Shown piece after piece: positions 1-37,434 of a stretch of DNA of 37,434 nucleotides (position 1 is its first letter; each line of letters opens with the position of its first letter). The notes beneath the pieces were generated by a model. The model was given only the letters and a program-made list of their open reading frames with translations. It did not search any database and was not told where the DNA came from. The translations under genes and the position numbers were made by a program. Origin of the DNA: Knoellia flava TL1 (GTDB taxonomy: Bacteria; Actinomycetota; Actinomycetes; Actinomycetales; Dermatophilaceae); contig NZ_AVPI01000024.1 in the NCBI RefSeq assembly GCF_000768675.1, forward strand, positions 1 through 37,434. The letters are read 5' to 3'.

Positions 1-1055
1 CCGGCGACCCCCGCGCCGCTCGGCCGGTCGGCGGTCGTCCCGAACGCCCGGCCCGTCCGGTCGACGACGCGCCCCGCCGCCGTCGCCGCTGGTGGCGCCT
101 CGTCCCCGTCGTCCTGCTCGCCTGGCTGGCGTTCCTGGTCTTCAGCCCGTTCCACGCCTGGAGCACGGTCTCGCGCGTCGACGACGCCCCCTCGGGCGAG
201 CGCCCTGCCGAGACCCCCGGCAGCACCTACCTCCTCGTCGGCTCGGACGCTCGCGACGACCTCACCCCGGAGCAGCGCAGGGAGCTCGGCACCGGCACCG
301 CCGAGGGGCGACGGACCGACTCGATCATGCTCGTCCACAAGCCGGCGGGCGGCGGCAAGTCGGTCATCGTGTCCATCCCGCGCGACAGCTACATGCCGAT
401 CCCCGGGCACAACAGCAACAAGGTCAACGCGGCCTTCTCGATCGGCGGCCCGCAGCTGCTCGTCCAGACGCTCGAGCAGGTCACCGGGCTCCGCATCGAC
501 GGCTACCTCGAGATCGGCTTCGGCGGCTTCGCCGACGTGGTCAACAGCCTCGGCGGCGTCGACATCTGCGTCCCGTTCGACATGGACGACCCCAAGGCGC
601 ACATCGACCTCAAGAAGGGCTGCCAGGTCCTCGACGGCAAGAACGCCCTCGGCTTCGTGCGCGCGCGCTACTCCGACCCGCGGGGGGACATCGGCCGGGC
701 CGACCGCCAGCGCCAGTTCCTCGGCGCGATCATGAAGGGCGCGGCCACACCGTCCACCGTCCTCAACCCGTTCCGCTACTGGGCGTTCACGCACACCGCC
801 GCGGGGGCCGTCGGGGTCGGCCAGGAGACCGGGATGCGCGACGCGGCCAACATCCTGCTCGCGATGCGCGGCGCGGGCAACGGGTCGACCCTCAGCCTCA
901 CCGTGCCGATCCAGAGCACGAACTACCAGACCGCCGCCGGGTCCTCGGTGAAGTGGGACACCGAGCGTGCCAAGGCCCTCTTCACGATGCTCCGCGAGGA
1001 CCAGCCCCTCGAGGCGCCGCCGGCCGGGACCGACGGCAAGCCCAGCGAGGGCTGA
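1..1055 (+). CDS. LytR-CpsA-Psr (LCP) family protein, 5' partial
   Basis: The 3' part of a gene that starts before the window; the reading frame is open from base 3. The visible protein has a basic, proline-rich cytoplasmic stretch, one membrane segment (WWRLVPVVLLAWLAFLVF) and an extracytoplasmic LCP domain. The domain motifs are present: RRTDSIMLV, IPRDSYMPIPG, KVNAAFSIGG and the arginine-rich FVRARYSDPRGDIGRADRQR. LCP enzymes transfer lipid-linked glycopolymers onto peptidoglycan (in mycobacteria, arabinogalactan ligation) and use the conserved Asp/Arg residues to bind pyrophosphate lipid. An LCP gene (Rv3267) lies upstream of fadE25-purE-purK in M. tuberculosis, which supports orthology. 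The polymer attached in this organism cannot be told from sequence. Confidence 0.93.
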   Translation, partial: GDPRAARPVGGRPERPARPVDDAPRRRRRWWRLVPVVLLAWLAFLVFSPFHAWSTVSRVDDAPSGERPAETPGSTYLLVGSDARDDLTPEQRRELGTGTAEGRRTDSIMLVHKPAGGGKSVIVSIPRDSYMPIPGHNSNKVNAAFSIGGPQLLVQTLEQVTGLRIDGYLEIGFGGFADVVNSLGGVDICVPFDMDDPKAHIDLKKGCQVLDGKNALGFVRARYSDPRGDIGRADRQRQFLGAIMKGAATPSTVLNPFRYWAFTHTAAGAVGVGQETGMRDAANILLAMRGAGNGSTLSLTVPIQSTNYQTAAGSSVKWDTERAKALFTMLREDQPLEAPPAGTDGKPSEG

Positions 1056-1087
1056 CCCGCACCTCCTTCACCCCAGGAACGACCAAA

Positions 1088-1123
1088 GGTATGCCGTCCG
1101 CCCACGCGGGCGGACGGCATACC
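1088..1123. terminator. Bidirectional hairpin terminator carrying the GTATGCCG motif
   Basis: Perfect 16-bp inverted repeat with arms GGTATGCCGTCCGCCC (1088-1103) and its complement (1108-1123) and a 4-nt loop. It lies between the convergent LCP and acyl-CoA dehydrogenase genes. No T-run follows on either side. The core of the arms is identical to the hairpin at 19832-19879. Confidence 0.75.
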
Positions 1124-1139
1124 GGCGTCCGGGGTCGGG

Positions 1140-2306
1140 TCAGCCCTTGAGGAGCTGGCGGGCCATGACGATGCGCTGCACCTGGTTGGTGCCCTCGTAG
1201 ATCTGGGTGATCTTGGCGTCGCGCATCATCCGCTCGAGCGGGAAGTCGCGGGTGTAGCCGGCGCCGCCGAGGAGCTGGACCGCGTCGGTCGTCACCTTCA
1301 TCGCGACGTCGGAGGCGTAGCACTTGGCCGCGGCGCCGAAGAACGGCAGGTCGGCGTCGCCGCGCTCGGACTTGGCGGCGGCGACGTAGACCATCTGCCG
1401 CGCGGCCTCGAGCTCCATCGCCATGTCGGCGAGCATGAACTGGATGCCCTGGAAGTCGGCGATGTGCTTGCCGAACTGCTTGCGCTCCTTGACGTAGGCC
1501 GTGGCCTGCTCGAGGGCGCCCTGGGCGATGCCGACCGCCTGCGCGCCGATGGTGACGCGGGTGTGGTCGAGGGTGCGCAGCGCGATCTTGAGGCCCTCGC
1601 CGGGGGCGCCGACGATGCGGTCGCCGGGGATGCGGACGTTGTCGAAGATCAGCTCGCGGGTGGGGCTGCCCTTGATGCCGAGCTTGCGCTCCTTCTCACC
1701 GAAGGAGAAGCCCTCGTCGGACTTCTCGACGACGAACGCCGTGATGTTGTTGCCGCGTGCGCCGTCGGGGTCGGTGACCGCGAGGACGGTGTAGTACTCG
1801 GAGACCCCGGCGTTCGTGATCCACGACTTCTGCCCGCTGAGGACCCAGTCGTCCCCGTCGGCCTTGGCCCGGCACTTCATCGCGGCGGTGTCGGAGCCGG
1901 CCTCGCGCTCGGACAGGCCGTAGGAGAAGCCGGCCTCACCGCGGGCGAGCGGCGGGAGGTACTTCGCCTTGACCTCCTCGGAGCCGCCGAGGATGACGGG
2001 CATCGAGCCGAGCTTGTTGACGGCCGGGATGAGCGAGGAGCTCGCGCAGACGCGAGCCACCTCCTCGATGACGATGCACGTCGCGAGGGCGTCGGCGCCG
2101 ACGCCGTCGTACTCCTCCGGCACGTGCGGGGCGAAGAAGTCGGACGCGACGAGTGCGTCGTGCGCCTCCTGCGGGTAGCGCGACTCCTCGTCCACGGCCG
2201 CCGCGAACGGCGCGATCCGGGCCTCGGCGATCTCGCGCACCGCCTCGCGGATCGCCTCGTGGTCCTCGTTGACCTGGAACAGGGGGAAGTCGGGGTTCGC
2301 ACTCAC
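1140..2306 (-). CDS. Acyl-CoA dehydrogenase (FadE25-like)
   Basis: A 388-residue protein of normal family length. FAD-dependent acyl-CoA dehydrogenases oxidise acyl-CoA to trans-2-enoyl-CoA and pass electrons to ETF. The N-terminal helical domain begins NEDHEAIREAVREIAEARI. The middle domain has FSYGLSEREAGSDTAAM and WITNAG. The C-terminal domain has RKQFGKHIADFQGIQFMLADM and IYEGTNQVQRIVMARQLL, with the catalytic Glu expected in YEGT. The GTG start at 2306 is chosen because the conserved N-terminus begins there and a TAGGAT -10 element lies 7 nt upstream, giving a leaderless transcript. A much longer open frame upstream is non-coding extension. Its place before purE-purK matches M. tuberculosis fadE25 (Rv3274c). 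The exact substrate is not determinable. Confidence 0.95.
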   Translation of the reverse strand: MSANPDFPLFQVNEDHEAIREAVREIAEARIAPFAAAVDEESRYPQEAHDALVASDFFAPHVPEEYDGVGADALATCIVIEEVARVCASSSLIPAVNKLGSMPVILGGSEEVKAKYLPPLARGEAGFSYGLSEREAGSDTAAMKCRAKADGDDWVLSGQKSWITNAGVSEYYTVLAVTDPDGARGNNITAFVVEKSDEGFSFGEKERKLGIKGSPTRELIFDNVRIPGDRIVGAPGEGLKIALRTLDHTRVTIGAQAVGIAQGALEQATAYVKERKQFGKHIADFQGIQFMLADMAMELEAARQMVYVAAAKSERGDADLPFFGAAAKCYASDVAMKVTTDAVQLLGGAGYTRDFPLERMMRDAKITQIYEGTNQVQRIVMARQLLKG

Positions 2307-2313
2307 GCCGCGA

Positions 2314-2319
2314 ATCCTA
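2314..2319 (-). promoter_or_regulatory. -10 element of a leaderless promoter for the acyl-CoA dehydrogenase
   Basis: TAGGAT read on the minus strand, followed by 7 nt and the GTG start. This spacing places the transcription start on the start codon itself. No Shine-Dalgarno sequence is present. Confidence 0.6.
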
Positions 2320-2326
2320 CCGACGC

Positions 2327-2389
2327 GTATGCCGTGCCCCTGCCGGTCTCCGTGTGGAACCGGCCACGCCGGCGCGCTCCACGGCATAC
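2327..2389. repeat. Spaced inverted pair of the GTATGCCGTG motif
   Basis: GTATGCCGTG at 2327-2336 and its exact complement CACGGCATAC at 2380-2389 lie in the divergent gap between the acyl-CoA dehydrogenase and the FG-GAP gene. The arms are 10 bp and the 43-bp loop is long. They could pair, but the position between divergent starts makes a terminator role doubtful. Confidence 0.6.
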
Positions 2390-2393
2390 ACTT

Positions 2394-2410: not shown

Positions 2411-2453
2411 ACTCGTCGCAGGCCTTCCCTTCTGCTCGAGAAAGCCCGCTGCC

Positions 2454-4565
2454 ATGCGCCACATCCGCGCCCGCCTGTCCGTGCTCACCGTGGGGGCCGC
2501 CCTCCTGTCCACCACCGGCCTCACCCTGCCCGTCGCACACGGCGTCGAGCCCGGTCCACGCGACGAGGTCCGTGGTCGGGCCGGACATGTCATCGCCACG
2601 GCCGAGGAGCGGCTCGCCGACGCCAAGAGCCGACCCGCGCCGACCGCGACGGGGGCGGGCCCCACCGCCCCGAACGGCCCCCGCGCTCAGCGAGCGGCCG
2701 GTGACCCGCCGATCTGCGACAGCAACGCCCTCTCCGCCGCCAACCTCGGGGACCGCATGGTGGTCCGCGCCTACCACCCCGGAGCAGCCTTGCTGCGGGT
2801 CGAGCGCCAGCGCGACTACGGGGCGTGGCGACCCGTGTTCACCGTCGCCGGCGAGATCGAGCAGAGGTCCGACCGCGACATCAACATCGCGACCGTCTTC
2901 ACGTACCGCCTCACCGCGACGAGCTCCACCGGCGCGGTGCTCCTCGCCTGCGAGACCTACCCCCTTCTGGCCGCGGACAACGACGGCCGGATCCAACCGG
3001 ACTTCGTCGTCGGCACCGACAACCTGCTGCTTCGCGAGGCGTTCTGGAGTGGCTTCGTCCCCCCGGACGGGGTGTCCGGGACCCACGTCACCCCGGCGTT
3101 CTCCGCCGACGGCCGCCTCATCGCGTCGACCGTCGTCGACCCCGACACGGGTCTGGGCAGGCTCGTGGTGCGGGACGCCGCCACCGAGGTCGCAACCTTC
3201 ACGGTCGACCTCGGGGCCGAGGTCACCCCTGCGGACGCCGCCTTCTCCCCCGATGGGCAGACCCTCGCGTTCACGCGCTACGACAACATGACCGGCGACA
3301 GCCGCGGGCTCGCCTTCGTCGACGTCCACGGTCCCCACACGGTGCGCAACCACGGGGTACCCGCCATGCCCCTCGCCGAGCCGACGTGGCGTGCCGACTC
3401 CTCCGGGCTCGTGGCCACCGACCTGCGGCTGGGCGAGGGCCTGGTGTCGACCTGCGCCACGTGCACGAGCGCTACCCCGATCGCCGCCACCCGTGACGGC
3501 TACACGCCCGACGTGGGCGTCGACGGCGTCCTGCGGTTCGCCCTCACCGACGAGACCACGAGCCGGATCGTGCGCCACACCGGGACCGGGGTCGTCACGG
3601 TGGCCACCGGCGAGCCCGAGCACGTGCTGTCCACGCCCCGCACGTCGCCCAACGGGCGGGTGCACTACCTCGCGGAGGACTACGGCACCGCCTCGGAGTG
3701 GAGCGTGCGTGCGCGGATCATGTCGCTGCGCGAGGACGGTGGGCTGGAGTTCTGGCGCAACGAGGTCTTCAACGCCTACGGCTTCGACGTCCGGCAGGTC
3801 GCGAGCAAGGACACCTCCGACGTCGTCGGGTCAGCGCACCACGACATCGTCGCCCGCGACTCGGCGGGCGTCCTCTGGGCCTATGCCGGCGCGGGCTCCG
3901 TCGGTCTCGGCGCCCGCGTGCGGCTCGGTGGCGGCTGGAACGCGTTCACGCGCATCCTCGTCGCGGGCGACCTCACCGGCGACGACCGGGCCGACCTCCT
4001 CGCCACCGACTCTCTCGGCAAGCTCTGGCTGTGGAAGGGCACCGGTCGCGGCAGCTTCTCCGCCAAGGTCCAGATCGGCAGCGGCTGGTCGAGCGGCTAC
4101 ACCCTCGTCGCGCCCGGCGACCTCACCGGCGACCAGCGAGCCGACCTCGTGGCACGTGACGCGTCCGGCGTCCTGTGGCTGTATGCCGGCACGGGACGTG
4201 GCACTGTCGGCTCGCGCACCGCGATCGGGTCCGGGTGGATGAACCAGAACGCGATCCTCGGCAGCGGTGACGTCGACTACGACAGCCGGGCCGACCTGCT
4301 CTCACGCGACACCCGTGGGCGGCTGTGGCTCTGGCCGGGCGACGGCCGTGGACGGCTCGGCGCCGCACGGCTTCTCGGCACCGGGTTCGGCTCCTACACC
4401 GCCCTGACCGTGACCGGCGTGACGAACCAGCGGGCGCTCGTCTGGGGGCGCACCGCGGCAGGAGTCCTCGGGGCCCACGACATCTACGCCGACGGGTCGT
4501 TCTCGCCGAACGGCTACTACGCGCTCGGGTCCGGCTGGAACGCGATGAGCGTCATCACGTCCTGA
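2454..4565 (+). CDS. Secreted beta-propeller / FG-GAP (VCBS-like) repeat protein
   Basis: A 703-residue protein. The ATG is chosen because it opens a clear signal peptide (MRHIRARLSVLTVGAALLST... ending near THGVEP-like residues), although the Shine-Dalgarno match is weak. Residues ~85-180 form an Ig-like or fibronectin-like module of unknown type. Residues ~200-450 carry PD40/WD40-like propeller blades (FSPDGQTLAFTRY). From ~460 to the end there are at least four FG-GAP repeats of the form DLTGDDRADLLATDSLGKLWLW, with acidic DxxGDxxxDL calcium-binding loops. Such proteins are exported and often serve adhesion or envelope roles; some are appended to hydrolases, but no catalytic domain is seen here. 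It has no counterpart in the mycobacterial synteny block, so it looks like a lineage-specific insertion. Confidence 0.88.
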   Translation: MRHIRARLSVLTVGAALLSTTGLTLPVAHGVEPGPRDEVRGRAGHVIATAEERLADAKSRPAPTATGAGPTAPNGPRAQRAAGDPPICDSNALSAANLGDRMVVRAYHPGAALLRVERQRDYGAWRPVFTVAGEIEQRSDRDINIATVFTYRLTATSSTGAVLLACETYPLLAADNDGRIQPDFVVGTDNLLLREAFWSGFVPPDGVSGTHVTPAFSADGRLIASTVVDPDTGLGRLVVRDAATEVATFTVDLGAEVTPADAAFSPDGQTLAFTRYDNMTGDSRGLAFVDVHGPHTVRNHGVPAMPLAEPTWRADSSGLVATDLRLGEGLVSTCATCTSATPIAATRDGYTPDVGVDGVLRFALTDETTSRIVRHTGTGVVTVATGEPEHVLSTPRTSPNGRVHYLAEDYGTASEWSVRARIMSLREDGGLEFWRNEVFNAYGFDVRQVASKDTSDVVGSAHHDIVARDSAGVLWAYAGAGSVGLGARVRLGGGWNAFTRILVAGDLTGDDRADLLATDSLGKLWLWKGTGRGSFSAKVQIGSGWSSGYTLVAPGDLTGDQRADLVARDASGVLWLYAGTGRGTVGSRTAIGSGWMNQNAILGSGDVDYDSRADLLSRDTRGRLWLWPGDGRGRLGAARLLGTGFGSYTALTVTGVTNQRALVWGRTAAGVLGAHDIYADGSFSPNGYYALGSGWNAMSVITS

Positions 4566-7841: not shown

Positions 7842-8294
7842 GTGACGCTTCGACACCGCAACGACCCCGACACGATCCGCGAGCTGCTCAACGACCCCGG
7901 CACCTGGGTGGTCGTGGGGCTGAGCACCAACCGGAAGCGCCCGGCATACGGCGTCGCCCAGTGGCTCAAGCACGAGCTGCACAAGGGGATCATCCCGGTC
8001 CACCCCAAGGCCGAGACCGTCCACGCCGAGCAGGGCTACGCGAGCCTCGCGGACATCCCGGACCAGGACGTCAAGGTCATCGACTGCTTCGTCAACTCCG
8101 AGCACGTGGGTGCCGTGGTCGACCAGGCCATCGAGCACAAGGACCGGCTCCAGATCGACGCCATCTGGATGCAGCAGGGCGTCGTCGACACCGCCGCTGC
8201 CGAGCGCGCCCGCAAGGTCGGGCTCGACGTCGTCATGGACACGTGCCCGCGCATCGAGTGGCCGCGCGTGCGCGGCGAGGGCTCCGCCCGCTAG
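7842..8294 (+). CDS. CoA-binding domain protein (CoA_binding_2, Rossmann fold)
   Basis: A 150-residue single-domain protein. The glycine-rich stretch WVVVGLSTNRKRPAYGVAQWL and the segment PVHPKAETV fit the small CoA-binding Rossmann proteins (YccU/YneT type). The GTG is chosen because family members begin with a short helix before the Rossmann strand (NDPDTIRELL), which this start gives. In this family the ligand is inferred to be CoA or an acyl-CoA; no catalytic activity is established. The gene stops 4 nt before the convergent purE stop, so the two transcripts must overlap. Confidence 0.88.
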   Translation: MTLRHRNDPDTIRELLNDPGTWVVVGLSTNRKRPAYGVAQWLKHELHKGIIPVHPKAETVHAEQGYASLADIPDQDVKVIDCFVNSEHVGAVVDQAIEHKDRLQIDAIWMQQGVVDTAAAERARKVGLDVVMDTCPRIEWPRVRGEGSAR

Positions 8295-8835: not shown

Positions 8836-10004
8836 TCGGTGATCGCTCCCTCGATGTAGTCGGCCGCGTGCCGAGCCCGCTGGCGCAGGTCGGCGAGGTC
8901 GTCGCCGCTGACGTTGACATGCCCGATCTTGCGACCCGGGCGGACCCCCTTGCCGTAGAGGTGCGCCTTGACCTCGGGGTCGCGCGCCATGACATGACGG
9001 TATGCCGGGTAGAGGTCGCTGTGGTGTCCGCCGAGGACGTTGCCCATGACGGTCCAGCGGTGCCGCGAGCGCGGTGAGCCCAACGGCAGGTCGAGGACCG
9101 CGCGCAGGTGCTGCTCGAACTGGCCGGTGACCGCGCCGTCCATCGACCAGTGGCCGCTGTTGTGCGGCCGCATCGCGAGCTCGTTGACGACGAACTCGCC
9201 GCCCGGCAGCTCGAACATCTCGACGGCGAGGACACCGGTGACGCCCAGCTCGCCGGCGACGCGGAGCCCGGCCTCGGTGGCTCGGGCCGCGAGGTCGTCG
9301 TCGAGGTCCGGAGCCGGGGCGATGACCTCGGTGCAGATGCCGTCCGTCTGGACGGTCTCCACGACCGGCCACGCCGCGGCCTGCCCGGAGGGGCTGCGGG
9401 CGAGGAGGACGGCGATCTCGCGGGTGAAGGGGACCTTCTCCTCGAGGAGCAGCGGTGAGTCCTCACCCGCGGCGCGCTCGAGCCAGTCGGTCAGCTCGTC
9501 GGCGAACCCGACGACGCGCACTCCCTTGCCGTCGTAGCCGCCGCGCGGCGTCTTCGCGACGAGGGGCCAGCCGACCTCGTCACCGAACGCGGTGACCTCG
9601 TCGACGGTGAGCGCCGACGCCCAGCGCGGGCACGGGACACCGAGGTCGGTGAGACGGGCGCGCATCTGCAGCTTGTCCTGGGCGAAGACGAGCGCCTCGG
9701 GGCTCGGGTGCATGACCGTCCCGGCGTCGGCGAGCGCCGCGAGGACGTCGGCGGGGACGTGCTCGTGGTCGAAGGTGACGACGTCGCACTCGGCGGCGAA
9801 GGCGAGGACCGCGTCGACATCGGTGTGCTGGCCGACGGGGGCCGACGGGATGACGAGCGCCGCGCTGGCGTCGGGCGCCTCGGCGAGCACGCTGAGCGTC
9901 ACCCCGAGCTCGGCCGCAGGGCCGGCGCACATCCGCGCGAGCTGGCCACCGCCGATGATGCCGACGACGGGGAATCCTCCGGGGGCACGCAGCGGGGCAG
10001 TCAC
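8832..10004 (-). CDS. purK: N5-carboxyaminoimidazole ribonucleotide synthase
   Basis: A 390-residue ATP-grasp enzyme that makes N5-CAIR from AIR, bicarbonate and ATP. The preATP-grasp Rossmann block is [13 protein letters not shown]. The ATP-grasp region has [15 protein letters not shown], and the C-terminal block [17 protein letters not shown] holds metal- and substrate-binding residues. The GTG at 10004 is chosen because it gives a normal N-terminus and has a TATCCT -10 element exactly 6 nt before it, implying a leaderless mRNA. It is first in the purK-purE operon and diverges from the GtrA gene, as in M. tuberculosis. Confidence 0.97.
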
Positions 10005-10010
10005 CCCGGG

Positions 10011-10067
10011 AGGATATCGGCGGGTGGTGGGCGGACGGCATACGGGACGGGTTTCGGCGGCTACGCT
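10011..10067. promoter_or_regulatory. Divergent leaderless promoters of purK and the GtrA gene
   Basis: On the minus strand TATCCT (10016 to 10011) is 6 nt before the purK GTG. On the plus strand TACGCT (10062-10067) is 6 nt before the GtrA GTG at 10074. Both fit TANNNT. One CGGCATAC copy sits between them at 10036. No PurR-type operator was recognised. Confidence 0.55.
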
Positions 10068-13409: not shown

Positions 13410-14171
13410 TCACCGGACGTGGACGACGTCACCAGCAGCCACGGCACGCGTGCCGGACCCCGTCGTCAGGGACAGTCTGCCGTCTGGGTCGACGTCGGTG
13501 GCCACACCCGTGATCTCCGAGCCGGGCAGCAGAACCCTCACCTCCCGGCCCACGGTGTCGCACGCCGCGACGTAGGACGAGCGGACGGCATACGGGTCGG
13601 CGTCGAGATTGCCCAGAAGCGTTGCGAGAGAACGAAGGTATGCCGTGAGCACGGCTTCGCGGCTCACTCCCGGCGCGCCGGCGAGACGGAGCGACGTGGC
13701 GGTGTCGACCGGCAGGTCGGATCGCTCCTGGTCGACGTTGACGCCGGTGCCGACGACGACGCCGTCCGGTGTGAGCTCGGCGAGGATGCCCGCGACCTTG
13801 CGGGCGCCGTCGGCCGGCAGCAGGAGGTCGTTGGGCCACTTGAGGGCGACCTCGACACCGGCCACGGAGGTGAGAGCGTCGCGCAGGGCGAGGCCGACCA
13901 CGAGCGGCACCCAGCCGAGCGGCGCGCGCGACGGGCGCGGCACGAGGACGCTCGCGGCGATGCTCGTGCCCGGCGTTGTCGTCCACGCCCTGTCGAGCCG
14001 CCCACGGCCCTGCGTCTGCACCTCGGCCGTGACGACGCGCCACGGCCGTTGGTCGCCCGCGAGCACGGCGTTGGTGGACCCGACGCTGTCGCGTACGTCG
14101 GCCGGCAGCCACGGCGGGCCGGGTGTGATGAGGGACGCATCCATCGGGCGGGAGGCAGCAGGAAGGGTCAC
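13410..14171 (-). CDS. birA: Biotin--[acetyl-CoA-carboxylase] ligase
   Basis: A 253-residue protein from the GTG at 14171 (244 residues from an alternative ATG at 14144). It activates biotin as biotinyl-AMP and attaches it to the carboxyl-carrier lysine of acyl-CoA carboxylases. The catalytic domain has GRGRLDRAW (biotin/ATP binding) and LKWPNDLLL with the conserved Lys, then the C-terminal SH3-like domain. There is no N-terminal helix-turn-helix, so it is a monofunctional ligase and not a biotin repressor. The GTG is preferred because a TAGCCT -10 element lies 7 nt upstream while the ATG has no ribosome-binding site. It is divergent from pccB, as birA is from accD5 in M. tuberculosis. Confidence 0.95.
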
Positions 14172-15836: not shown

Positions 15837-16060
15837 CCTCTTCTCAGGCTGAGAGCTCAAGCGGGCCGGTCATCGAGGTCGTCGGCGACGCGACGCCCGA
15901 GCAGGTCGCCGCGCTCGTCGCGGTCCTCTCGGCGGCGGCCGGTGCGGCGGCCGCCGAGGTGCCGGCACGGCATACGTCCGCGTGGTCGGCACCGGCAGGT
16001 CTGGTGCGGCGCCCCGTCGCTCCCGGCCCCGGCGCCTGGTCGCGCTCGCTCCGCGGCTGA
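15833..16060 (+). CDS. accE: Acyl-CoA carboxylase epsilon subunit
   Basis: A 75-residue protein that starts on a GTG overlapping the pccB stop (GTGA), so it is translationally coupled. The N-terminal strand-helix [24 protein letters not shown] and the C-terminal segment ending in a conserved Trp (GAWSRSLRG) match the small AccE family. Epsilon subunits bind the alpha-beta carboxylase complex and raise its activity in Streptomyces and mycobacteria. In M. tuberculosis accE5 is followed directly by maf. Here maf is almost 8 kb further on. Confidence 0.88.
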
Positions 16061-16178: not shown

Positions 16179-16206
16179 ACCGCAACGGGGTATGCCGGTC
16201 GCTCGC

Positions 16207-24602: not shown

Positions 24603-24639
24603 GGTATGCCGTGGCGCACGACGTGCGCCACGGCATACC
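24603..24639. terminator. Bidirectional 17-bp hairpin terminator carrying the GTATGCCG motif
   Basis: A perfect 17-bp inverted repeat, GGTATGCCGTGGCGCAC (24603-24619) and its complement (24623-24639), with a 3-nt loop. It lies between the convergent maf and subtilisin genes. Flanking bases extend the stem with two mismatches. It shares GGTATGCCGT with the hairpins at 1088 and 19832, but the inner part differs. Confidence 0.8.
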
Positions 24640-27404: not shown

Positions 27405-27432
27405 ACGCTCCACTCTTCCAGTCGCCCCGGGG

Positions 27433-28623
27433 TCAGGCGGTCGGCAGACCGAGGTGGCGCGCGATGACCATGCGCTGCACCTCGCTCGTGCCCTCGCCGA
27501 TCTCGAGGATCTTGGCGTCCCGGTAGAAGCGAGCGACGGGGTACTCCTCCATGAAGCCGTTGCCGCCGAAGACCTGCGTCGCGATGCGGGTCGCGGAGAC
27601 GGCGGCCTCGCTCGTGTAGAGCTTCGCGATCGCGGCGGCCTTCTTGACGTCGGCCACCGAGCGCCGGCCGGCGTCGTGCTCGTCCTTGAGCCAGGCGGCC
27701 TTGTAGGTGAGGACGCGGCCCGTCTCCGCCATGACGGCGAGGTCGGCGAGCTGGAAGGAGATGCCTTGGTTGACCGCGATCGGCTTGCCGAACGCCGTGC
27801 GCGACGACGCGTATGCCGTGCTCTCGGCGAGCATGCGCTCGATCAGTCCCAGCGCGAGGGCGGAGATGGCGATGCGGCCGTCGTCGAGGGTCTTGAGGAA
27901 CTGCTTGAAGCCGCTCCCCTGCTCGCCGAGGAGGTTGCCGGCCGGGACACGGGCTCCGGAGAAGCTGAGGCCGTGGGTGTCGGAGATGTGCCAGCCGAGC
28001 TTGTGGTAGGGCTCCTCGACGGTAAATCCCGGTGTGCCAGAAGGGATCATGATCGCGCTGATCTCGGGCCGGCCCTTGTCGTCGGTGCCCGTGCGGGCGG
28101 TGACGGTGACGACCGAGGTGATGTCGGTGCCGGAGTTCGTGATGAACGCCTTGGCGCCGTCGACGACGTAACTGTCGCCGTCGCGGACGGCCTTGGTGCG
28201 GGTGGCACCGGCATCCGACCCGGCGTCGGGCTCGGTGAGGCCGAAGCCCGCGAGCGCGCGGCCGGCGACGAGGTCGGGCAGCCACTGCTGCTTCTGCTCG
28301 TCCGTGCCGAAGGAGAGGATCGGGTTGATGCCGAGGCCCACGCCGGCGCTGAGCGTGATGCCGATCGACTGGTCGACGCGGCCGAGCTCCTCGATGGCGA
28401 CGCAGAGGCTCGTGAACGCACCGCCCTCCTCGGGGTCGAGGCTGCCGCCGAGCTCCTCGGGGACGACGAGCCCGAAGAGGCCGAGCTCGCCCATCTTGGG
28501 CACGAGGTCGGTCGGGAAGTGCGAGTCGCGGTCCCACTGGGCGACGTGCGGCTCGACCTCGCGCTCGGCGAAGTCGCGCACGACCTTGCGGAAGTCCTCG
28601 TGGTCCTGGCTGAGCTCGAACAT
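27433..28623 (-). CDS. Acyl-CoA dehydrogenase of a branched-chain acyl-CoA operon
   Basis: A 396-residue FAD enzyme. It has FGLTEPDAGSDAGATRT, FITNSGTDITSVVTVTA, RTAFGKPIAVNQGISFQLADLAVMAE and the C-terminal EIGEGTSEVQRMVIARHL. The canonical active-site Glu appears to be in GEGT, as in short/medium-chain enzymes. Isovaleryl-CoA dehydrogenases carry Ala there, so a strict isovaleryl-CoA assignment is doubtful. AGAGGA lies about 6 nt before the ATG at 28623, so this gene uses a leadered mRNA. It is the first gene of the operon with the carboxyltransferase and is divergent from a MerR regulator with a palindromic operator between them, which suggests induction by an acyl-CoA intermediate. Confidence 0.94.
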   Translation of the reverse strand: MFELSQDHEDFRKVVRDFAEREVEPHVAQWDRDSHFPTDLVPKMGELGLFGLVVPEELGGSLDPEEGGAFTSLCVAIEELGRVDQSIGITLSAGVGLGINPILSFGTDEQKQQWLPDLVAGRALAGFGLTEPDAGSDAGATRTKAVRDGDSYVVDGAKAFITNSGTDITSVVTVTARTGTDDKGRPEISAIMIPSGTPGFTVEEPYHKLGWHISDTHGLSFSGARVPAGNLLGEQGSGFKQFLKTLDDGRIAISALALGLIERMLAESTAYASSRTAFGKPIAVNQGISFQLADLAVMAETGRVLTYKAAWLKDEHDAGRRSVADVKKAAAIAKLYTSEAAVSATRIATQVFGGNGFMEEYPVARFYRDAKILEIGEGTSEVQRMVIARHLGLPTA

Positions 28624-29530: not shown

Positions 29531-31717
29531 TCACGGGTCGGTGATGACGATGGTGCAGGTGTAGGACCCGACGAGCAGGTCGGTGGCCGTCAGCGTCTTC
29601 GCCGCGGAGTCACCGGGCAGAGCATCGACATCGGTGCCGACCGGTGGCGTCGTCGTCCCGGTCTTCCGACACTGGATCGAGTCGGCATACGTCGATGTCG
29701 TCTGCGGGGTGACCGTCACCGAGAGGTTGGTCAACGGCGCATTGAGGAAATCGCCGACGTCGACAGTCTCTTGACCGAGCGACACAGTGACCGTCAGATG
29801 CGTGGCCGGGGCCATCTTTCGCCAACCGGTCTTGCCGGTCTCGACGACCGAGTAGGTGCCCGGCGCCACATCGGTGAAGGTGAAGGCACCCGTGCCAGTG
29901 GCTGACGTGGCCGTTCCCAGGACCGTGCCCACAGCGCCGCCACTGCCGGCGTACAACTTGAACTCGAAGCCGCCGAGCTTCGTGTCTCCGCCGGTTCCCG
30001 TGTCGAGGACACCGTCTGCGTCGACGTCCTTGTACTTCTCGCCCGACAGGTCTGCAAGCGGGAACGTCCTGTTGTTGTCCTTGCGGCACGTGAAGCCCGT
30101 CGCGGTCGCCGTTTCGACGATGCCGGTGTTCATCGCCTCGTCGTCCGCACCTGACACACTTCCGGACGGTGACCCCGACGTGTAGGCGTAGGACCAGTCG
30201 AGCGTGTCACTGTGCTTGAGTCCCGAGATCGTGACGGTTCGACTGGTCGCGACGTCCGGATCGACGGTCATCGCCACAGTCGTGGAAGGCCCGTTGTCAT
30301 CGGGGTCGTTGATGGCGTACGTCACCGACAGGTTCGCTCCGGTTGGCACCTGCGCCACCGTGATCTTCTTGTTGATGAGGCACGCGTTGCCGAAGATCAC
30401 CGTCGACCCGGAGGCTGTCTGGTTGACGTCCTTCTTGGGCGAGGCCGCTGCCGTGTTCGGGTCCGTGGAGTAGTAGCCGGCCTGCATCGTCTCGTAGACG
30501 TCGTACGGGCCGTTCGGCACGTCCTGGAACTCCAGCTTCGGGTCGGTGCCAGCGGTGGAGCCGGAGAAGTCGGCGGTCCCCGTGGGACCGAGGCCGTCCT
30601 TGAAGACCTTGTAGGCCCATCCGGGAAGCCAGGGCTCCGTGGTCTGCTTCTGCCCGTCGGCGTTGCGGTCGAAGTACTTCCGGATCGTCATCGGCCCACA
30701 CGTCGGCGACTCGATCTCGACGTAGTCGTAGAGCGTAGCCGTCGTCGATGTCGACGAACGCGTGTCGGCAAGAGCGGACGCGAAGCACGGCTGCGGCTCG
30801 TTGAGGTCGTCGAAGAATTGCGTGATGTCGAGGAAGCCCTCCACGAAGACGTTCTTCTGGAGGTCGGCCGTCGGCAGCTTGTTGTTCTTCTGCGGTGACC
30901 ACCAGGGCGAGTCGATCGTGCCACCACCGTTGGTGATGACGCAGAAGGTCTTGGTGTAGTCGATGTTGGCCGGGTCGCACTTTGCATCGGTGGACGTGAA
31001 GTCCGGGTCGTTCGGCAGACCGCCGTTCCACGAGTAGCCCTTGGCAGTGCCGACCGAGCCACCGCTGTCATAGCTCACGACCGCGAGCAGGTCGCCGTCC
31101 TCGTGCACGCCGGTGAACGAGGTGTTGCCCGAGCCCGCGGTGCAGCCGACGGACGGGTCCTGCAACAGCCAGATGCCGACGTTGTTCGTGCCGTTGTCGT
31201 CGTCCTTCTCGAGGCCGAAGAAGTAGACGGTGTGCGGGTCCGTCGTGGAGTTCCCGTCGTGGTCGACGAGGGCCGCGTAGCCGTAGGCGTTGACGAAGTC
31301 GCCCTTGTCGGTCGCGTTGTTCGTCTTCTTGCACTGCCAGCCGGGAGTGATGTTGAGGGTGTCCTTCGATCCCGTGGCGTAGTACGACGTGTCCCCGTTG
31401 ACGTAGGCGCCGTTGGTCACGAGGAAGTCGCGTGCGAAGTCCGGCTCGAGGATCGAGGCAGGCAGTCCGCTGTTCACCGTCGGCTCCGCCGTCGGCGTGG
31501 CCGCCGAGAAGATGTCGGACCAGTCGAACGGAGGGTCGGCAGAAGCGGAGTCGTCGAGGATGTTGCCATCGAGCTCGTGGAATCCGACTCCGGCTGCCAG
31601 CGCGCTGGGGAGCGTGAGGCCGACACCGAGGGCGAGTGCCGCGATTCCGCCGAGGGCGACACGGCGCCGACTGCGGGAAGACGAGCGTGAGCGCTCGCCG
31701 GTGGACGTGGAATTCAT
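29531..31717 (-). CDS. Large secreted SpaA/prealbumin-like surface protein
   Basis: A 728-residue protein with a basic N-terminus and signal peptide (RRRVALGGIAALALGVGLTLPSALA). Residues ~45-330 form an unrecognised Cys-containing N-terminal domain (WQCKKTNNATDKGDFVNAYGYAAL, DPSVGCTAGSGNTSFTG). From ~345 come SdrD-B/SpaA-like beta-sandwich repeats with the pattern KYFDRNADGQKQTTEP...FQDVPNGPYDVYET and KYKDVDADGVLDTGTGGDTKLGGFEFKLY...FTDVAPGTYSVVETGKTGW. The acidic DxDxDG loops could bind calcium. There is no LPxTG motif or C-terminal membrane segment, so it is not sortase-anchored in the usual way. The gene looks lower in GC than its neighbours. Translation may be controlled by a hairpin over its ribosome-binding site. 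Confidence 0.88.
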   Translation of the reverse strand: MNSTSTGERSRSSSRSRRRVALGGIAALALGVGLTLPSALAAGVGFHELDGNILDDSASADPPFDWSDIFSAATPTAEPTVNSGLPASILEPDFARDFLVTNGAYVNGDTSYYATGSKDTLNITPGWQCKKTNNATDKGDFVNAYGYAALVDHDGNSTTDPHTVYFFGLEKDDDNGTNNVGIWLLQDPSVGCTAGSGNTSFTGVHEDGDLLAVVSYDSGGSVGTAKGYSWNGGLPNDPDFTSTDAKCDPANIDYTKTFCVITNGGGTIDSPWWSPQKNNKLPTADLQKNVFVEGFLDITQFFDDLNEPQPCFASALADTRSSTSTTATLYDYVEIESPTCGPMTIRKYFDRNADGQKQTTEPWLPGWAYKVFKDGLGPTGTADFSGSTAGTDPKLEFQDVPNGPYDVYETMQAGYYSTDPNTAAASPKKDVNQTASGSTVIFGNACLINKKITVAQVPTGANLSVTYAINDPDDNGPSTTVAMTVDPDVATSRTVTISGLKHSDTLDWSYAYTSGSPSGSVSGADDEAMNTGIVETATATGFTCRKDNNRTFPLADLSGEKYKDVDADGVLDTGTGGDTKLGGFEFKLYAGSGGAVGTVLGTATSATGTGAFTFTDVAPGTYSVVETGKTGWRKMAPATHLTVTVSLGQETVDVGDFLNAPLTNLSVTVTPQTTSTYADSIQCRKTGTTTPPVGTDVDALPGDSAAKTLTATDLLVGSYTCTIVITDP

Positions 31718-32090: not shown

Positions 32091-32097
32091 TCCACCC

Positions 32098-33357
32098 GTG
32101 GCGACGACGAGAGGCTCCGGCGCGAGACCGCCGAGCCGGTGGACGGCATACGCCGGTCCGCTGCCGACCACGACGCGAGGGATGGAGTATGCAGTCGCGC
32201 TCCTCGTGCTCGGCGTTCGGCTCGGCACCCTCGTCCAGATGGTTCCAGGTCTGGCACAGGGCATCTCGGTCTCTCCCCGGCCGAGCCTGTATGCCGTGTG
32301 CTGGGCGGCCGCGGCGATCAGCAGCCTCGTCGTGAGCGTCGTCGTGTTCCGTCGTGGTGGTCCGCTGACCCGGCGCGGCTTCGCGGTGGACCTCTGCGTC
32401 GCGATGACGCTCATGCTGCTGGGGCCGCTCACCGTGCCCGATGCCTACCTCGTCGGGTCGTGGGTGGCGCCCTTCCCTGCGCACCTGCTGGCGGTCGTGT
32501 GCACGGGCGCGACGGTGCTCATGCTGCGGTGGCAGTGGGTCGCTGCGGTGGGTGCGGCCGTGGCGTCCAGTGCGGTCTTCACTGCGCCGGCGTGGAACCG
32601 CGACAGCGCGACGACGATCGTGGCCAACGTCCTCACGCTCATCGTCCTTTCGAGCGTGGGCCGGCTCATCCTCGGCTACTTCCGTCGGGTGGCCGAGGAC
32701 GGGGACCGCGCGCGGGCCGAGGCGACCGAGCTCGGCCGGCGCGAGGAGGAGCGACGCGCCCAGCTCGCGATCCACAACGGGGCGGCGGTGATCCGCATGC
32801 TCAGTGACCCGACCATCGACGAGGAGACCCGCGCCTTCCTCCAGAAGGAGGCCCAGCTCGAGTCCGCGCGCATGCGCTCCTACCTCCAGGGCCGCGGCTC
32901 CACCGACGACGCGGTCGCCCAAGGGACTGGCGGCGTCGAGGTGCGCGCGGTCGTGAGCGCCACCTGCGACCGATTCCTCGACCTGCCGCTCCAGCTCAAC
33001 GTCGACCTCGCCGAGGGCGCCCACGTCGACGCGCCCCGCGCCGCCGCTCTCGACCAGGCGCTCGCGAGCCTGCTTCTCAACGTCCGCGACCATGCCGAGG
33101 CCGAGTCCGTCGTCGTCCATGCCGATGCTCCTCCGGTCGGCCCCGGCGAGGACGAGACGTGGGTCGTCACGCTCCACGACGACGGCGTCGGCTTCGAGGT
33201 GTCGCAGGCGACGATGGGCGTCGGGCTGCGCGAGGTCGTCGTCGGCGAGATGCGCCGGCGCGACATCGACGTGTCGATCTCCTCCACCCCCGGCCTCGGG
33301 ACCACGGTGACGCTCACCGGTCCGTGCCTGACGATGTCCGGAGAGGGGGCGCGGTGA
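32098..33357 (+). CDS. Sensor histidine kinase of a LuxR-type two-component system
   Basis: A 419-residue protein. The first ~200 residues hold about five or six membrane segments (EYAVALLVLGVRLGTLVQMV, YAVCWAAAAISSLVVSVVVF, VAMTLMLLGPLTV and others), with no large extracellular domain. A coiled linker (RVAEDGDRARAEATELGRREEERRAQL) leads to the dimerisation helix with the probable phosphoacceptor His in LAIHNGAAVIRML. The C-terminal ATPase domain has a degenerate N box (LLLNVRDHAEAESV), G1 (HDDGVGFEVSQ) and G2 (MGVGLREVVVGEM). This is the NarL-partner type of kinase. It overlaps the response regulator gene by 4 nt. The signal is unknown. Confidence 0.92.
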   Translation: MATTRGSGARPPSRWTAYAGPLPTTTRGMEYAVALLVLGVRLGTLVQMVPGLAQGISVSPRPSLYAVCWAAAAISSLVVSVVVFRRGGPLTRRGFAVDLCVAMTLMLLGPLTVPDAYLVGSWVAPFPAHLLAVVCTGATVLMLRWQWVAAVGAAVASSAVFTAPAWNRDSATTIVANVLTLIVLSSVGRLILGYFRRVAEDGDRARAEATELGRREEERRAQLAIHNGAAVIRMLSDPTIDEETRAFLQKEAQLESARMRSYLQGRGSTDDAVAQGTGGVEVRAVVSATCDRFLDLPLQLNVDLAEGAHVDAPRAAALDQALASLLLNVRDHAEAESVVVHADAPPVGPGEDETWVVTLHDDGVGFEVSQATMGVGLREVVVGEMRRRDIDVSISSTPGLGTTVTLTGPCLTMSGEGAR

Positions 33358-34076: not shown

Positions 34077-34115
34077 GCGGACGGCATACGCGGGGTCCGT
34101 GCCAGGTGCGGTGGC

Positions 34116-35039
34116 TCAGGTGCGGTCGGCGAGGAAGGCGTCGATCTCCGCGGCGGTGGGAGCCGTGGCGGGACCGCGCCGGGTCACCTTGACCGCTCCG
34201 CCGGCGTTGGCCCGGCGCGCCGCCTCGACCCAACCCATGCCTGCGGCGCGACAGGCGACGAGGACACCGGTGTGCGTGTCTCCGGCGCCGTTGGTGTCGA
34301 CCGGCTTCTGCGGGTAGCCGTCGAGGTCCGTCGTCTCGCCGTCGGCGTGGACGGCACACCCCTCGGGTCCGTCGCGGACGATGGCGACGGCGCCATCGGG
34401 CAGGTGTTCGATGCAGAGCGCGGCCGCCCGGACGATGTCGGACTCACCGGTGAGGGCCTCGCTCTCCTCGGCGTTGCCGGTCCAGACCGTCGTGAGGTCG
34501 AGCATCGCGCGCCGGATCCCGTCGTCGAGCTCGGCGAAGATCGCGCCGGGGTCGAGGACGACCTCGACGCCGTCGGGCAGCCCGGCGAGCCACTCCAACA
34601 ACGGGTCCCGCGTCGTCCCCGTGAGGCTGTAGCCGCTCACGCAGACGAGGTCGCCTGCCTCGGGCCGTGAGGTCTGGAGCGACTCGACGCTGATGAGCCG
34701 CTCGGCCGCCTGGGTCGTGACGAAGGTGCGCTCGGCGGTGGGCTCGAGCATGACGACGCAGATGCCGGTGTCGAGGTCGGGCACGACGGGGCTCGACACG
34801 GTGACGCCCTCGGCCGCGAGCGCGGAGCGGACGAGGTCACCGTGCGGCCCGGTGCCGGTCGCACCGGCGTGCACGCACTCGGCACCCTGTCGCGCGGCGG
34901 CGAGGAGGATGTTGACCGCTCCGCCGGCATACTCCTCGGGCGGCGGCGCCATGACGTTGCCTCCGCGGCGCGGGATCGACGGGACCTCGACGACGACGTC
35001 GACGAGGGCCTGCGCGGTGTGGATCACCCGAGGAGACAT
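34116..35039 (-). CDS. PfkB-family carbohydrate kinase
   Basis: A 307-residue ribokinase-fold protein. It has the N-terminal substrate-binding block PSIPRRGGNVMAPPPEEYAGGAVNILLAAARQGA (in the place of GG-x-A-N) and the C-terminal DTNGAGDTHTGVLVACRAAGM with the catalytic Asp. The likely reaction is ATP-dependent phosphorylation of a sugar or nucleoside; the substrate is unknown. The ATG at 35039 has a TACGCT -10 element 7 nt upstream, which overlaps a GTATGCCG motif, so its promoter and the motif share bases. The 39-bp gap to the convergent response-regulator gene holds another motif copy and a weak 5-bp dyad. Confidence 0.9.
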   Translation of the reverse strand: MSPRVIHTAQALVDVVVEVPSIPRRGGNVMAPPPEEYAGGAVNILLAAARQGAECVHAGATGTGPHGDLVRSALAAEGVTVSSPVVPDLDTGICVVMLEPTAERTFVTTQAAERLISVESLQTSRPEAGDLVCVSGYSLTGTTRDPLLEWLAGLPDGVEVVLDPGAIFAELDDGIRRAMLDLTTVWTGNAEESEALTGESDIVRAAALCIEHLPDGAVAIVRDGPEGCAVHADGETTDLDGYPQKPVDTNGAGDTHTGVLVACRAAGMGWVEAARRANAGGAVKVTRRGPATAPTAAEIDAFLADRT

Positions 35040-35046
35040 GGACCGC

Positions 35047-35052
35047 AGCGTA
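35047..35052 (-). promoter_or_regulatory. -10 element of the PfkB kinase, overlapping a GTATGCCG motif
   Basis: TACGCT on the minus strand, 7 nt before the ATG at 35039. Read together the bases are CGGCATACGCT, so the last three bases of the 8-mer are the first three of the -10. Confidence 0.5.
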
Positions 35053-35104
35053 TGCCGGTTGCTCCCTTTCGCAGCGCGTGGCGCCTCGCGTCGTGCGAGC
35101 GGTG

Positions 35105-36914: not shown

Positions 36915-36920
36915 ACGCGC

Positions 36921-36926
36921 ATCCTA
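36921..36926 (-). promoter_or_regulatory. -10 element, leaderless XRE-kinase operon
   Basis: TAGGAT on the minus strand, 6 nt before the GTG at 36914. It lies about 30 bp from the palindrome in the divergent promoter. Confidence 0.55.
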
Positions 36927-36951
36927 GGTCGCACGATCCGGGGGCGGGGAG

Positions 36952-36981
36952 TTGTGTGTTTGCTATTGCAAACGCTAGGGT
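36952..36981 (+). promoter_or_regulatory. Promoter of the VWA gene with a palindrome in its spacer
   Basis: TTGTGT (36952-36957) and TAGGGT (36976-36981) are 18 nt apart. The perfect dyad GTTTGCTATTGCAAAC (36958-36973) fills the spacer. It is unusually AT-rich for this genome. Position and symmetry suggest an operator, most simply for the XRE protein encoded next to it. Confidence 0.55.
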
Positions 36982-37011
36982 CGGGGCATTCAGTCATCAG
37001 GGGGAACCACC

Positions 37012-37434
37012 ATGCGAGTCCTTGCCATCATCGCTGCGGCGAGCGTCGCGCTCTGCTCGACCGCGGCTGCCGCCTCGCCGGCGAACCAGACCACACGTCC
37101 GGCCGCCGTCGCAGCTGCCGCTCAGGTCCCTGCGTCGAACCTCGCCACGCAGACCGACGAGCAGGGCAAGCTCCTGCTCATGCTCGACGCGTCCGGGTCG
37201 ATGAAGGCGAAGGACCCGTCGGGGCTCACCAAGATCGAGGCCGCCAAGAAGGCGCTCACCGGCGTCGTCGGCGCCCTCCCCGCCACCGCGCAGGTGGGGC
37301 TGCGGGTCTACGGCGCCCAGGTCGACGGCAAGGGCAAGCCGACGCCCGCCGCCTGCGCCGACACCCGGCTCGTCGCACCCATCGCCCCACTCGACAAGGC
37401 CGGGCTCACGTCGACGATCGGCGCGATCAAGGCA
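37012..37434 (+). CDS. Secreted von Willebrand factor A domain protein, 3' partial
   Basis: The first 141 codons of a gene that runs off the window. A signal peptide (MRVLAIIAAASVALCSTAAAASPA) is followed by a short linker and a VWA domain with an intact metal-ion-dependent adhesion motif DASGSMKAKDPSG in LLLMLDASGSM. The continuing KIEAAKKALTGVVGALPATAQVGLRVYGAQ is typical of VWA helices and strands. A GGGGGAA ribosome-binding site lies upstream of the ATG. It is divergent from the XRE-kinase operon, which may regulate it. The rest of the protein, and any partner chaperone ATPase or phosphatase, lies outside the window. Confidence 0.88.
   Translation, partial: MRVLAIIAAASVALCSTAAAASPANQTTRPAAVAAAAQVPASNLATQTDEQGKLLLMLDASGSMKAKDPSGLTKIEAAKKALTGVVGALPATAQVGLRVYGAQVDGKGKPTPAACADTRLVAPIAPLDKAGLTSTIGAIKA

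Follow-up and report, generated by a model that had tools for sequence, protein, structure and literature searches.

A putative DNA-uptake sequence with dialects in the actinobacterial family Intrasporangiaceae

The window, by which we mean the whole 37,434-nt stretch of DNA that was analysed, carries 28 copies of the 8-mer GTATGCCG, 12 of which read GTATGCCG and 16 CGGCATAC, and all of them were found where an earlier note on this DNA had located them. With a simple gene caller, 16 copies fell between genes (not 13, as counted in that note, which had rightly pointed to an intergenic excess), one fell on a gene edge, and 11 fell in genes. Inverted pairs of the word form three near-perfect hairpins (z -7 to -12), all at convergent junctions, in line with the inverted-pair use at gene ends that had been proposed. 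The copies are as follows.

1089..1122 (copies 1089 +, 1115 -): inverted pair GTATGCCG...CGGCATAC, 16-pair hairpin, z -7.1, between convergent genes for a LytR-CpsA-Psr protein and an acyl-CoA dehydrogenase
2327..2334, + strand: GTATGCCG, intergenic, divergent junction
2382..2389, - strand: GTATGCCG, intergenic, divergent junction
4181..4188, + strand: GTATGCCG, in a gene
7942..7949, - strand: GTATGCCG, in a gene
9000..9007, + strand: GTATGCCG, in a gene
10036..10043, - strand: GTATGCCG, intergenic, with the GTATGCCGTCCGCCC extension
13586..13593, - strand: GTATGCCG, in a gene
13638..13645, + strand: GTATGCCG, in a gene
15968..15975, - strand: GTATGCCG, intergenic
16190..16197, + strand: GTATGCCG, intergenic
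17013..17020, - strand: GTATGCCG, intergenic
17964..17971, - strand: GTATGCCG, intergenic
19839..19872 (copies 19839 +, 19865 -): inverted pair of GTATGCCG, 23-pair hairpin, z -12.1, between convergent genes for a DUF885 protein and a secretory lipase
21516..21523, + strand: GTATGCCG, in a gene
24604..24638 (copies 24604 +, 24631 -): inverted pair of GTATGCCG, 24-pair hairpin, z -11.7, between convergent genes for Maf and a subtilase
26606..26613, - strand: GTATGCCG, in a gene
27399..27406, - strand: GTATGCCG, on a gene edge
27811..27818, + strand: GTATGCCG, in a gene
29683..29690, - strand: GTATGCCG, in a gene
32144..32151, - strand: GTATGCCG, intergenic
32289..32296, + strand: GTATGCCG, in a gene
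34082..34089, - strand: GTATGCCG, intergenic, with the GTATGCCGTCCGC extension
34925..34932, - strand: GTATGCCG, in a gene
35050..35057, + strand: GTATGCCG, intergenic

The hairpins have no T-run and would therefore be missed by any search for T-tailed terminators.

In 100 dinucleotide shuffles of the window the word occurred on average 0.58 times (sd 0.73, largest count 3), which upholds the reported over-representation and makes the chance expectation of one or two copies given at that time somewhat high. Of all 8-mers in the window, GTATGCCG came out on top with Markov models of order 1 and of order 2; at order 3 only the overlapping word TATGCCGT was ahead of it. A maximal-order model left it unflagged, because the signal already sits in its own 7-mers. 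The whole genome (3.56 Mb) contains 2,541 copies compared with 94 of a reversed control word, so that the word is neither ordinary genome-wide nor confined to the locus of the window, and this spread ruled out a local repeat or mobile element. The count also exceeds the approximately 1,000 or more copies of one short word per genome that are expected of an uptake sequence. Neither orientation dominates, with 1,268 and 1,273 copies on the two strands, as was said before of the 12 and 16 in the window. The 3' extension to GTATGCCGTCCGC proved to be real as well: T follows in 60% of 327 sampled copies, and between genes it is next in 70 of 94 copies, 34 of those 70 reading TCCG.

The density of the word is 1.59 per kb between genes versus 0.60 per kb inside them and peaks at convergent junctions (3.66 per kb), with a close +- pair at only 6 of 285 sampled junctions. 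Genes contain 226 of the 327 sampled copies, 130 in the same and 96 in the opposite orientation. Along 260 kb of one contig the strands were even (95 versus 93). Likewise, the earlier suggestion to look for strand skew around replication revealed no bias in two parts sampled from a single-contig chromosome (70/68 and 51/49), for which the replichore assignment is approximate, GC skew being positive in the first part and about zero in the second. Spacing was near random (CV 1.04 versus a null of 0.94), and even spacing was not seen. The 24 one-mismatch forms of GTATGCCG showed no excess, either overall (278 versus 300.3 expected) or between genes (32 versus 40.2 expected). Within genes, GTATGCCG overrides codon preference. 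Where the context completes the word, Tyr is encoded by TAT in 117 of 135 cases, as opposed to 107 of 2,190 elsewhere, and GCA is used in 77 of 125 cases, as opposed to 1 of 196.

Between species, the word was kept in place at 55 of 67 aligned sites in seven hand-chosen, partly overlapping locus pairs, compared with 20-58% for random 8-mers. Its scarcity in foreign DNA was partial. A 19 kb low-GC island held no copies (14.5 expected), and Tetrasphaera phage TJE1 (49 kb) held 2, where 36.8 would be expected at own-genome density. Prophages were mildly depleted: 11 prophage capsid genes had 15 copies at a distance of up to 3 kb, versus 33.8 expected (an approximately two-fold depletion), and the prophage neighbourhoods of the 11 loci held 74 versus 102.6 expected.

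The genome belongs to the Intrasporangiaceae, probably to the genus Knoellia. Across 89 genomes of this family the copy number of GTATGCCG was bimodal, with at least 939 copies in 51 genomes and at most 293 in the other 38. No comparable count was present in 58 genomes representing other families in the order, and none near the family counts in a phylum sample of 293 non-family genomes (5 of them shared with the 58). Within the genomes sampled, GTATGCCG is restricted to one family. A comparable 8-mer was also absent from 45 of 47 loci of other actinobacterial families, the remaining two, shorter than 9 kb, being skipped. The comparison with related genera that had been proposed yielded thousands of copies in many family members and dialect words in others. 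GGATGCCG is present in 3,816 copies in genome G024, 3,838 in G071 and 3,949 in G033 (reversed word 289-439), and in 241-1,038 copies in the remaining family genomes except G009 (1,336), G051 (2,195) and G085 (2,099), while GAATGCCG reaches 3,135 copies in G020 (reversed word 27). Both differ from GTATGCCG at position 2, and G051, G085 and G020 carry two dialect words at once. In G033, GGATGCCG has a density of 3.26 between genes versus 0.71 inside, and its codon context favours GAT in G033 (24/37 versus 26/1,911 elsewhere) and in G024 (10/12 versus 66/686 elsewhere). These codon-context tests ruled out a codon-usage artefact for GTATGCCG and GGATGCCG. The family contains the dialects GTATGCCG, GGATGCCG and GAATGCCG.

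A replacement word was sought for the 38 genomes low in GTATGCCG, and none was found for 26 of them. GCATGCCG was rejected as a dialect, as it did not exceed 597 copies in any of 39 genomes. GTACGCCG, a possible further dialect, occurs in 1,125-3,903 copies in eight family genomes and showed no intergenic excess; its codon context was nominally significant (uncorrected) in three of six genomes, namely G047, G087 and G075, and not in G030, G031 and G026. Sites of GTACGCCG aligned with GTATGCCG in relatives at 6/12 positions for G047, 3/9 for G087, 3/5 for G030 and 1/3 for G031, compared with 0/10, 0/10 and 1/8 for the control word GTACGACG in G047, G087 and G030; in Janibacter the figure for GTACGCCG was 1/3. 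This pattern would look alike under T-to-C decay of GTATGCCG, and words centred on CGTACG, included as a control column, are frequent in the GTACGCCG-rich genomes. GGATGCCG aligned with GTATGCCG at 3/17 sites in G033 (control 0/14) and at 2/3 in G051/G085, and none of its sites in G024 were alignable. Even in word-free genomes, 4/7 sites of GGATGCCG lined up with GTATGCCG, so that alignment alone is weak evidence for dialect status.

ComEC was detected in 77 of 80 family genomes, and ComEA adjoins it in 38 of 39 loci among those listed. The genome of the window itself has a Tad cluster that encodes Flp, TadE and TadG-like proteins. By contrast, PilM (PF11104), a marker of the type IVa pilus, was found in only 4 of the 80 and is absent here, so that the competence genes for which a search had been suggested earlier are present as ComEA, ComEC and Tad-pilus genes and not as a type IVa pilus, which we rejected as a correlate. 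The machinery would therefore be of the Tad type, as in Micrococcus luteus. Word-free family members also have ComEC, TadE, ComEA and a conserved Tad locus, which are therefore no predictors of the word; neither these nor the genome's own Tad cluster tracks it. Searching plasmids with TadA/CpaF did no more than put a name to that protein.

Taken together, we consider it likely that GTATGCCG, with GTATGCCGTCCGC as its extended intergenic form, serves as the DNA-uptake sequence in a lineage of actinobacteria with natural competence; what we infer here is the receptor, the bias in uptake and the molecular drive that would maintain the word. The likeness to the Neisseria and Haemophilus pattern that the earlier note had drawn holds for most of the tested hallmarks (copy number, even strands, intergenic enrichment, hairpins, site conservation, dialects and competence genes), and fails for the excess of one-mismatch forms and for the type IVa pilus. 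In such a lineage a surface DNA receptor would prefer DNA carrying the word, and the most plausible candidates would be a minor pilin of a Tad/Flp pilus or a partner of ComEA. Imported strands would cross via ComEC and then recombine, and word alleles would therefore be copied into the chromosome more often than word-free ones. The word would accumulate on both strands, chiefly where its cost is lowest, i.e. between genes, in gene-end hairpins and in tolerant codon frames, and would then be kept in place, presumably by molecular drive. If the preference of the receptor shifted, the words of the genome would follow and dialects would arise; if it was lost, the word would fade.

Other explanations account for parts of these data. 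A lineage-specific nucleoid-associated or chromosome-organising protein that binds each site, with selection keeping the sites while specificity drifts between genera, is consistent with a dense, genome-wide word without strand bias whose single sites are strongly conserved, with the missing one-mismatch excess (as if every exact site counted), and with the dialects. By itself it leaves unexplained the 38 of 89 family genomes with at most 293 copies, the hairpins at convergent ends, and the low counts in the island and in the single phage examined, and we regard it as unlikely. These low counts would suit a word that a modification, restriction or defence system uses as its target or self-mark, with HIP1 as a comparable case, and so would an exact 8-bp word with sharp edges and no surplus of near-misses. 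Restriction targets, though, are usually avoided and not enriched, and a non-palindromic word that is densest between genes and where genes converge fits such a target poorly, which makes this reading quite improbable.

A transcription or RNA element (a terminator stem, or an RNA processing or regulatory site) multiplied genome-wide would agree with the near-perfect hairpins at three convergent junctions of the window and with the peak in density at such junctions. The large share of copies within genes, in both orientations, already weakens it, as do the rarity of close +- pairs and the result of an Rfam search at gathering score (0 matches in the window), so that we give it very little credence. 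Finally, a strand-oriented chromosome processing site, either a Chi-like hotspot or a KOPS-like polarity site, would share the high copy number and is contradicted by the even strands at every scale considered (overall, along the 260 kb, and in both chromosome parts); with no orientation bias to point to, its probability is close to nil.

With somewhat less confidence than for the uptake sequence as such, we think that Gram-positives probably evolved a system of this kind independently, in which Tad-pilus competence reads GTATGCCG-type words with at least three position-2 dialects and several losses of specificity. If true, sequence-selective sex would be tied neither to outer membranes nor to type IVa pili. 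An actinobacterial uptake sequence was not described among the literature matches listed (open-licence papers, no preprints), and in these searches we found no data on transformation in Intrasporangiaceae. As far as the cited sources go (e.g. PMC13020248, PMC4212676), just two families, Neisseriaceae and Pasteurellaceae, have described uptake sequences. Which benefit these bring (repair, kin recognition or selfish drive) remains a matter of debate. An actinobacterial case, the third and apparently an independent one, would make a comparative test possible, with its dialects, its genomes of mixed dialect and its relatives free of the word. One would further expect natural competence among environmental genera that can be cultured (Knoellia, Terrabacter, Humibacillus, Ornithinimicrobium and Phycicoccus/Tetrasphaera). 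The word would also suggest how transforming DNA for them might be designed, and could lead to a sequence-specific DNA receptor of the Tad type.

Among known systems, HIP1 of cyanobacteria is a very frequent, lineage-restricted palindromic 8-mer of unclear function. GTATGCCG is likewise a very frequent 8-mer confined to a lineage, but it is not its own reverse complement and has intergenic hairpins and dialects. The DUS of Neisseriaceae, with ComP as receptor, resembles it in a copy number that runs into the thousands (943-5,918 per genome according to PMC3630211), its dialects inside one family, the co-occurrence of two dialects in one genome (S. muelleri there; G051, G085 and G020 here), and the existence of word-free family members. 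DUS are described as conserved above their flanks and rare in recently acquired genes (PMC2397512). The present case differs in phylum, in its Tad pilus genes with PilM so rare, and in the word GTATGCCGTCCGC itself. AT-DUS, printed as GCCGTCTGAA, has the 12-letter form ATGCCGTCTGAA; it has ATGCCGTC.G in common with GTATGCCGTCCGC (9/10 letters), which we take as coincidence or convergence. Over-representation of mismatched forms has been discussed for DUS and USS (PMC1939737), unlike the one-mismatch forms of GTATGCCG. The USS of Pasteurellaceae (AAGTGCGGT and variants) is likewise short, non-palindromic and present at a very high copy number, with an unrelated sequence, in another phylum and with another pilus. 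Its complementary pairs are reported in terminator hairpins (PMC1852404, PMC13020248), from which the GTATGCCG hairpins are set apart by having no T-run. The putative system apparently evolved apart from both DUS and USS. In Micrococcus luteus, like the organism studied here an actinobacterium with genes of these kinds, Flp/Tad-pilus-dependent natural transformation with comEA, comEC and tad genes has been described, in a paper whose text does not use 'uptake sequence', 'uptake signal' or 'DUS' (PMC4322843).

All 28 positions at which the earlier note had placed the 8-mer GTATGCCG in the window were recovered, and its over-representation held, since 100 dinucleotide shuffles gave a mean of 0.58 and a maximum of 3 copies. 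The word ranked first among window 8-mers under Markov models of order 1 and 2; at order 3 it came second, after the overlapping TATGCCGT. A maximal-order model did not flag it in the window, because the word's own 7-mers carry the signal. Genome-wide (94 contigs, 3.56 Mb; the window is contig 24), it occurs 1,268 times on one strand and 1,273 times on the other; the reversed word, our control, occurs 44 and 50 times. In a sample of 437 kb (20 stretches of 20 kb and the window) we found 327 copies versus 8 expected at Markov order 2, the order-4 expectation of 84 being itself inflated by the word. Strands were balanced along every contig sampled, and likewise in two parts of the single-contig chromosome of a relative, G074 (70/68 in 140 kb, 51/49 in 120 kb), and spacing in the sample was approximately random (CV 1.04, null 0.94).

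We then considered 89 genomes of the Intrasporangiaceae including that of K. flava, a group whose GTDB name we take to be Dermatophilaceae. The word had 939 or more copies in 51 of them (word-bearing) and at most 293 in 38 (low). It reached at most 167 copies in 58 genomes from other families of the order, and in a phylum sample of 296 genomes (3 from the family, 5 others shared with the 58) the top non-family genome had 386 in 7.5 Mb (control 176). Consistent with these counts, named loci with the word came from Knoellia, Phycicoccus elongatus, Humibacillus, Terrabacter, Terracoccus, Intrasporangium oryzae, Ornithinimicrobium and Arsenicicoccus, and the stretches examined from three Janibacter, Phycicoccus jejuensis, another Phycicoccus, Intrasporangium flavum, Dermacoccus abyssi and two MAGs had none; 47 loci judged non-family by title held 19 copies in 943 kb.

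Genes in the sample were called approximately (413 genes) with a simple home-made codon-usage caller, which placed 94 copies between genes, 7 on gene edges and 226 within genes, or 1.59/kb intergenic versus 0.60/kb genic. Genic copies lay 130 times in the orientation of the gene and 96 times opposite (p = 0.03), mainly in the frames NNG TAT GCC GNN (117) and NCG GCA TAC (77). TAT made up 117/135 Tyr codons where it completes the word and 107/2,190 elsewhere, and GCA preceded TAC in 77/125 cases following NCG versus 1/196 otherwise; the word overrides codon preference in this genome. Since Tyr in a word-fitting codon context was several-fold commoner in word-bearing genomes, the word may also shape protein sequence. 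Tyr codons in that context numbered 135/2,325 in K. flava and 100/1,393 in G074, versus 2/347 in another family genome, G048.

Three +- pairs in the window, 26-27 bp apart, each lie between convergent genes and each fold into a long stem:

1089-1122, +- pair, hairpin 1 at a convergent junction, fold z -7.1
19839-19872, +- pair, hairpin 2 at a convergent junction, fold z -12.1
24604-24638, +- pair, hairpin 3 at a convergent junction, fold z -11.7

The two hairpins lying in the first 20 kb showed no T-run terminator pattern. Junctions across the sample were tallied by gene orientation.

The word at intergenic junctions of 10-1,500 bp in the 437-kb sample
Convergent: 3.66/kb; word in 18/52; close +- pairs in 4
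Divergent: 1.96/kb; word in 22/65; close +- pairs in 0
Codirectional: 2.19/kb; word in 36/168; close +- pairs in 2

The word has sharp edges, GTATGCC being followed by G in 327/329 occurrences in the sample. The soft 3' extension noticed earlier is also real: T came next in 60% of copies, and among intergenic copies T followed in 70/94 and TCCG in 34/94. One-mismatch words showed no excess overall (278 observed, 300.3 expected over 24 words, of which three, CTATGCCG, GGATGCCG and GTAGGCCG, were mildly elevated) or between genes (32 observed, 40.2 expected). The extended K. flava consensus GTATGCCGTCCGC has ATGCCGTC.G (9 of 10 letters) in common with Neisseria AT-DUS, which we take to read ATGCCGTCTGAA; this likeness may be coincidental, reflect convergence on DNA shape, or have some other cause.

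Across seven pairs of orthologous loci, chosen by hand and overlapping in part, the second species had the identical word at 55 of the 67 copies that could be aligned, compared with 20-58% for random 8-mers; between K. flava and K. subterranea the figures were 9/10 and 22%. Only two word-free gaps above 6 kb, adjacent and of 19.3 and 8.1 kb, occurred in the sample, the larger with 0 copies against 14.5 expected:

Contig C1 of K. flava, 30273-49623 (sampled loci L008 and L009), 19 kb word-free stretch, GC 0.652

This stretch encodes an rve-type integrase and an OmpA-domain protein, along with three proteins that match nothing in Pfam, and with its low GC looks like an acquired island. Tetrasphaera phage TJE1 (49 kb, GC 0.577) has 2 copies versus 36.8 expected at the K. 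flava density; some published abstracts give Dermatophilaceae as the family of Tetrasphaera. A prophage survey of 47 word-bearing genomes gave capsid matches in 12 of them, 17 in total, from which 12 places were taken and one 3.7-kb contig dropped. The remaining 11 loci held 74 copies versus 102.6 expected, and 15 versus 33.8 within 3 kb of the capsid gene, so that the word is depleted in prophage loci, not absent.

Alternative words, abundant in a relative in place of GTATGCCG or beside it (dialects), were sought by k-mer discovery in 40 kb samples of 12 of the 38 low genomes. Genome-wide, GGATGCCG numbered 3,816 copies in G024, 3,838 in G071 and 3,949 in G033; 2,195 in G051 and 2,099 in G085, which both retain about 1,200 GTATGCCG; 1,336 in G009; and 241-1,038 in the remaining genomes of the 80. 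GAATGCCG had 3,135 copies in G020 (reversed word 27) alongside 1,025 GTATGCCG, 730 in G058 and 388 in G050. In G033, GGATGCCG has the same signature as GTATGCCG in K. flava, with 3.26/kb intergenic versus 0.71 genic and GAT in 24/37 Asp codons when completing it versus 26/1,911 (p = 3e-32); in G024 the codon figures were 10/12 versus 66/686. Two dialect words, GGATGCCG or GAATGCCG with GTATGCCG, are elevated together in G051, G085, G020, G058 and G050, genomes perhaps caught mid-switch. GCATGCCG was rejected as a dialect (0/39 genomes). GTACGCCG was elevated in eight low genomes, where codon usage and possible decay confound a dialect reading. The reversed control word GCCGTACG was very frequent in G075 (2,409 copies), G047, G083, G055 and G031, which together with GTACGGCG/GTACGCCG suggests a CGTACG-centred word bias in these five. 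In one locus of G030 (L070, 5012-5636) a 24-bp unit that includes TCGAACTG is present 27 times head to tail. With G009 and the eight GTACGCCG-elevated genomes tallied apart, and discovery covering 12 of the 38, no word was found in 26/38 low genomes. On a quick ComEC tree (59 rows; 20/55 inner branches weak) word states clustered, with 14 changes for seven labels versus a shuffled mean of 24.5 and 12 for four merged states, and the GGATGCCG state stood at two separate places.

The search for competence genes that the earlier note had advised found ComEC in 77/80 family genomes, and the named relatives nearest to the K. flava protein were K. subterranea (76%) and K. remsis (73%), followed by Phycicoccus, Janibacter and other Intrasporangiaceae. 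ComEA (SLBB and helix-hairpin-helix) adjoins ComEC in 38 of the 39 loci listed, with or without the word in the genome; the single exception is interrupted by a contig end. TadE occurred in 78/80. Pfam identifies Flp, TadE and TadG-like proteins in the K. flava Tad cluster (L178, contig C41); the names of the other genes in the cluster, and of the directly adjoining mtrAB two-component genes, are presumed from how their sequences look. The VWA-TadB protein of this cluster, present in 42/80 genomes (E 1e-10 or better), does not track the word. A second locus, tadA-B-C-flp-tadE-F-G, followed by what we take to be prfB, occurs in relatives including two word-free genomes and dialect genomes (close TadA homologue in 15/20 loci), and the type IVa marker PilM in 4/80. 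No gene tested (ComEC, ComEA, TadE, VWA-TadB, the TadA locus, PilM) separates word-bearing from word-free genomes. The family nevertheless has machinery of the kind needed in the known case of Micrococcus luteus (PMC4322843).

Among the matches listed from open-licence papers, there was no earlier report of an actinobacterial uptake sequence; a 2026 prokaryote-wide terminator survey, in the part available, mentions such words for Neisseriaceae and Pasteurellaceae (PMC13020248). According to passages of the respective papers, Neisseriaceae DUS number 943-5,918 copies in eight dialects, with two in one genome and none in some family members (PMC3630211), are conserved, occur more often than expected in the core and are missing from genes of recent acquisition (PMC2397512), and uptake words occur in terminator hairpins (PMC1852404, PMC13020248). 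The family word differs from DUS and USS in phylum, pilus type, the word itself and its lack of near-miss forms. The overall pattern is nevertheless close, and the view that this putative uptake sequence would work like DUS/USS is well supported by the comparison.
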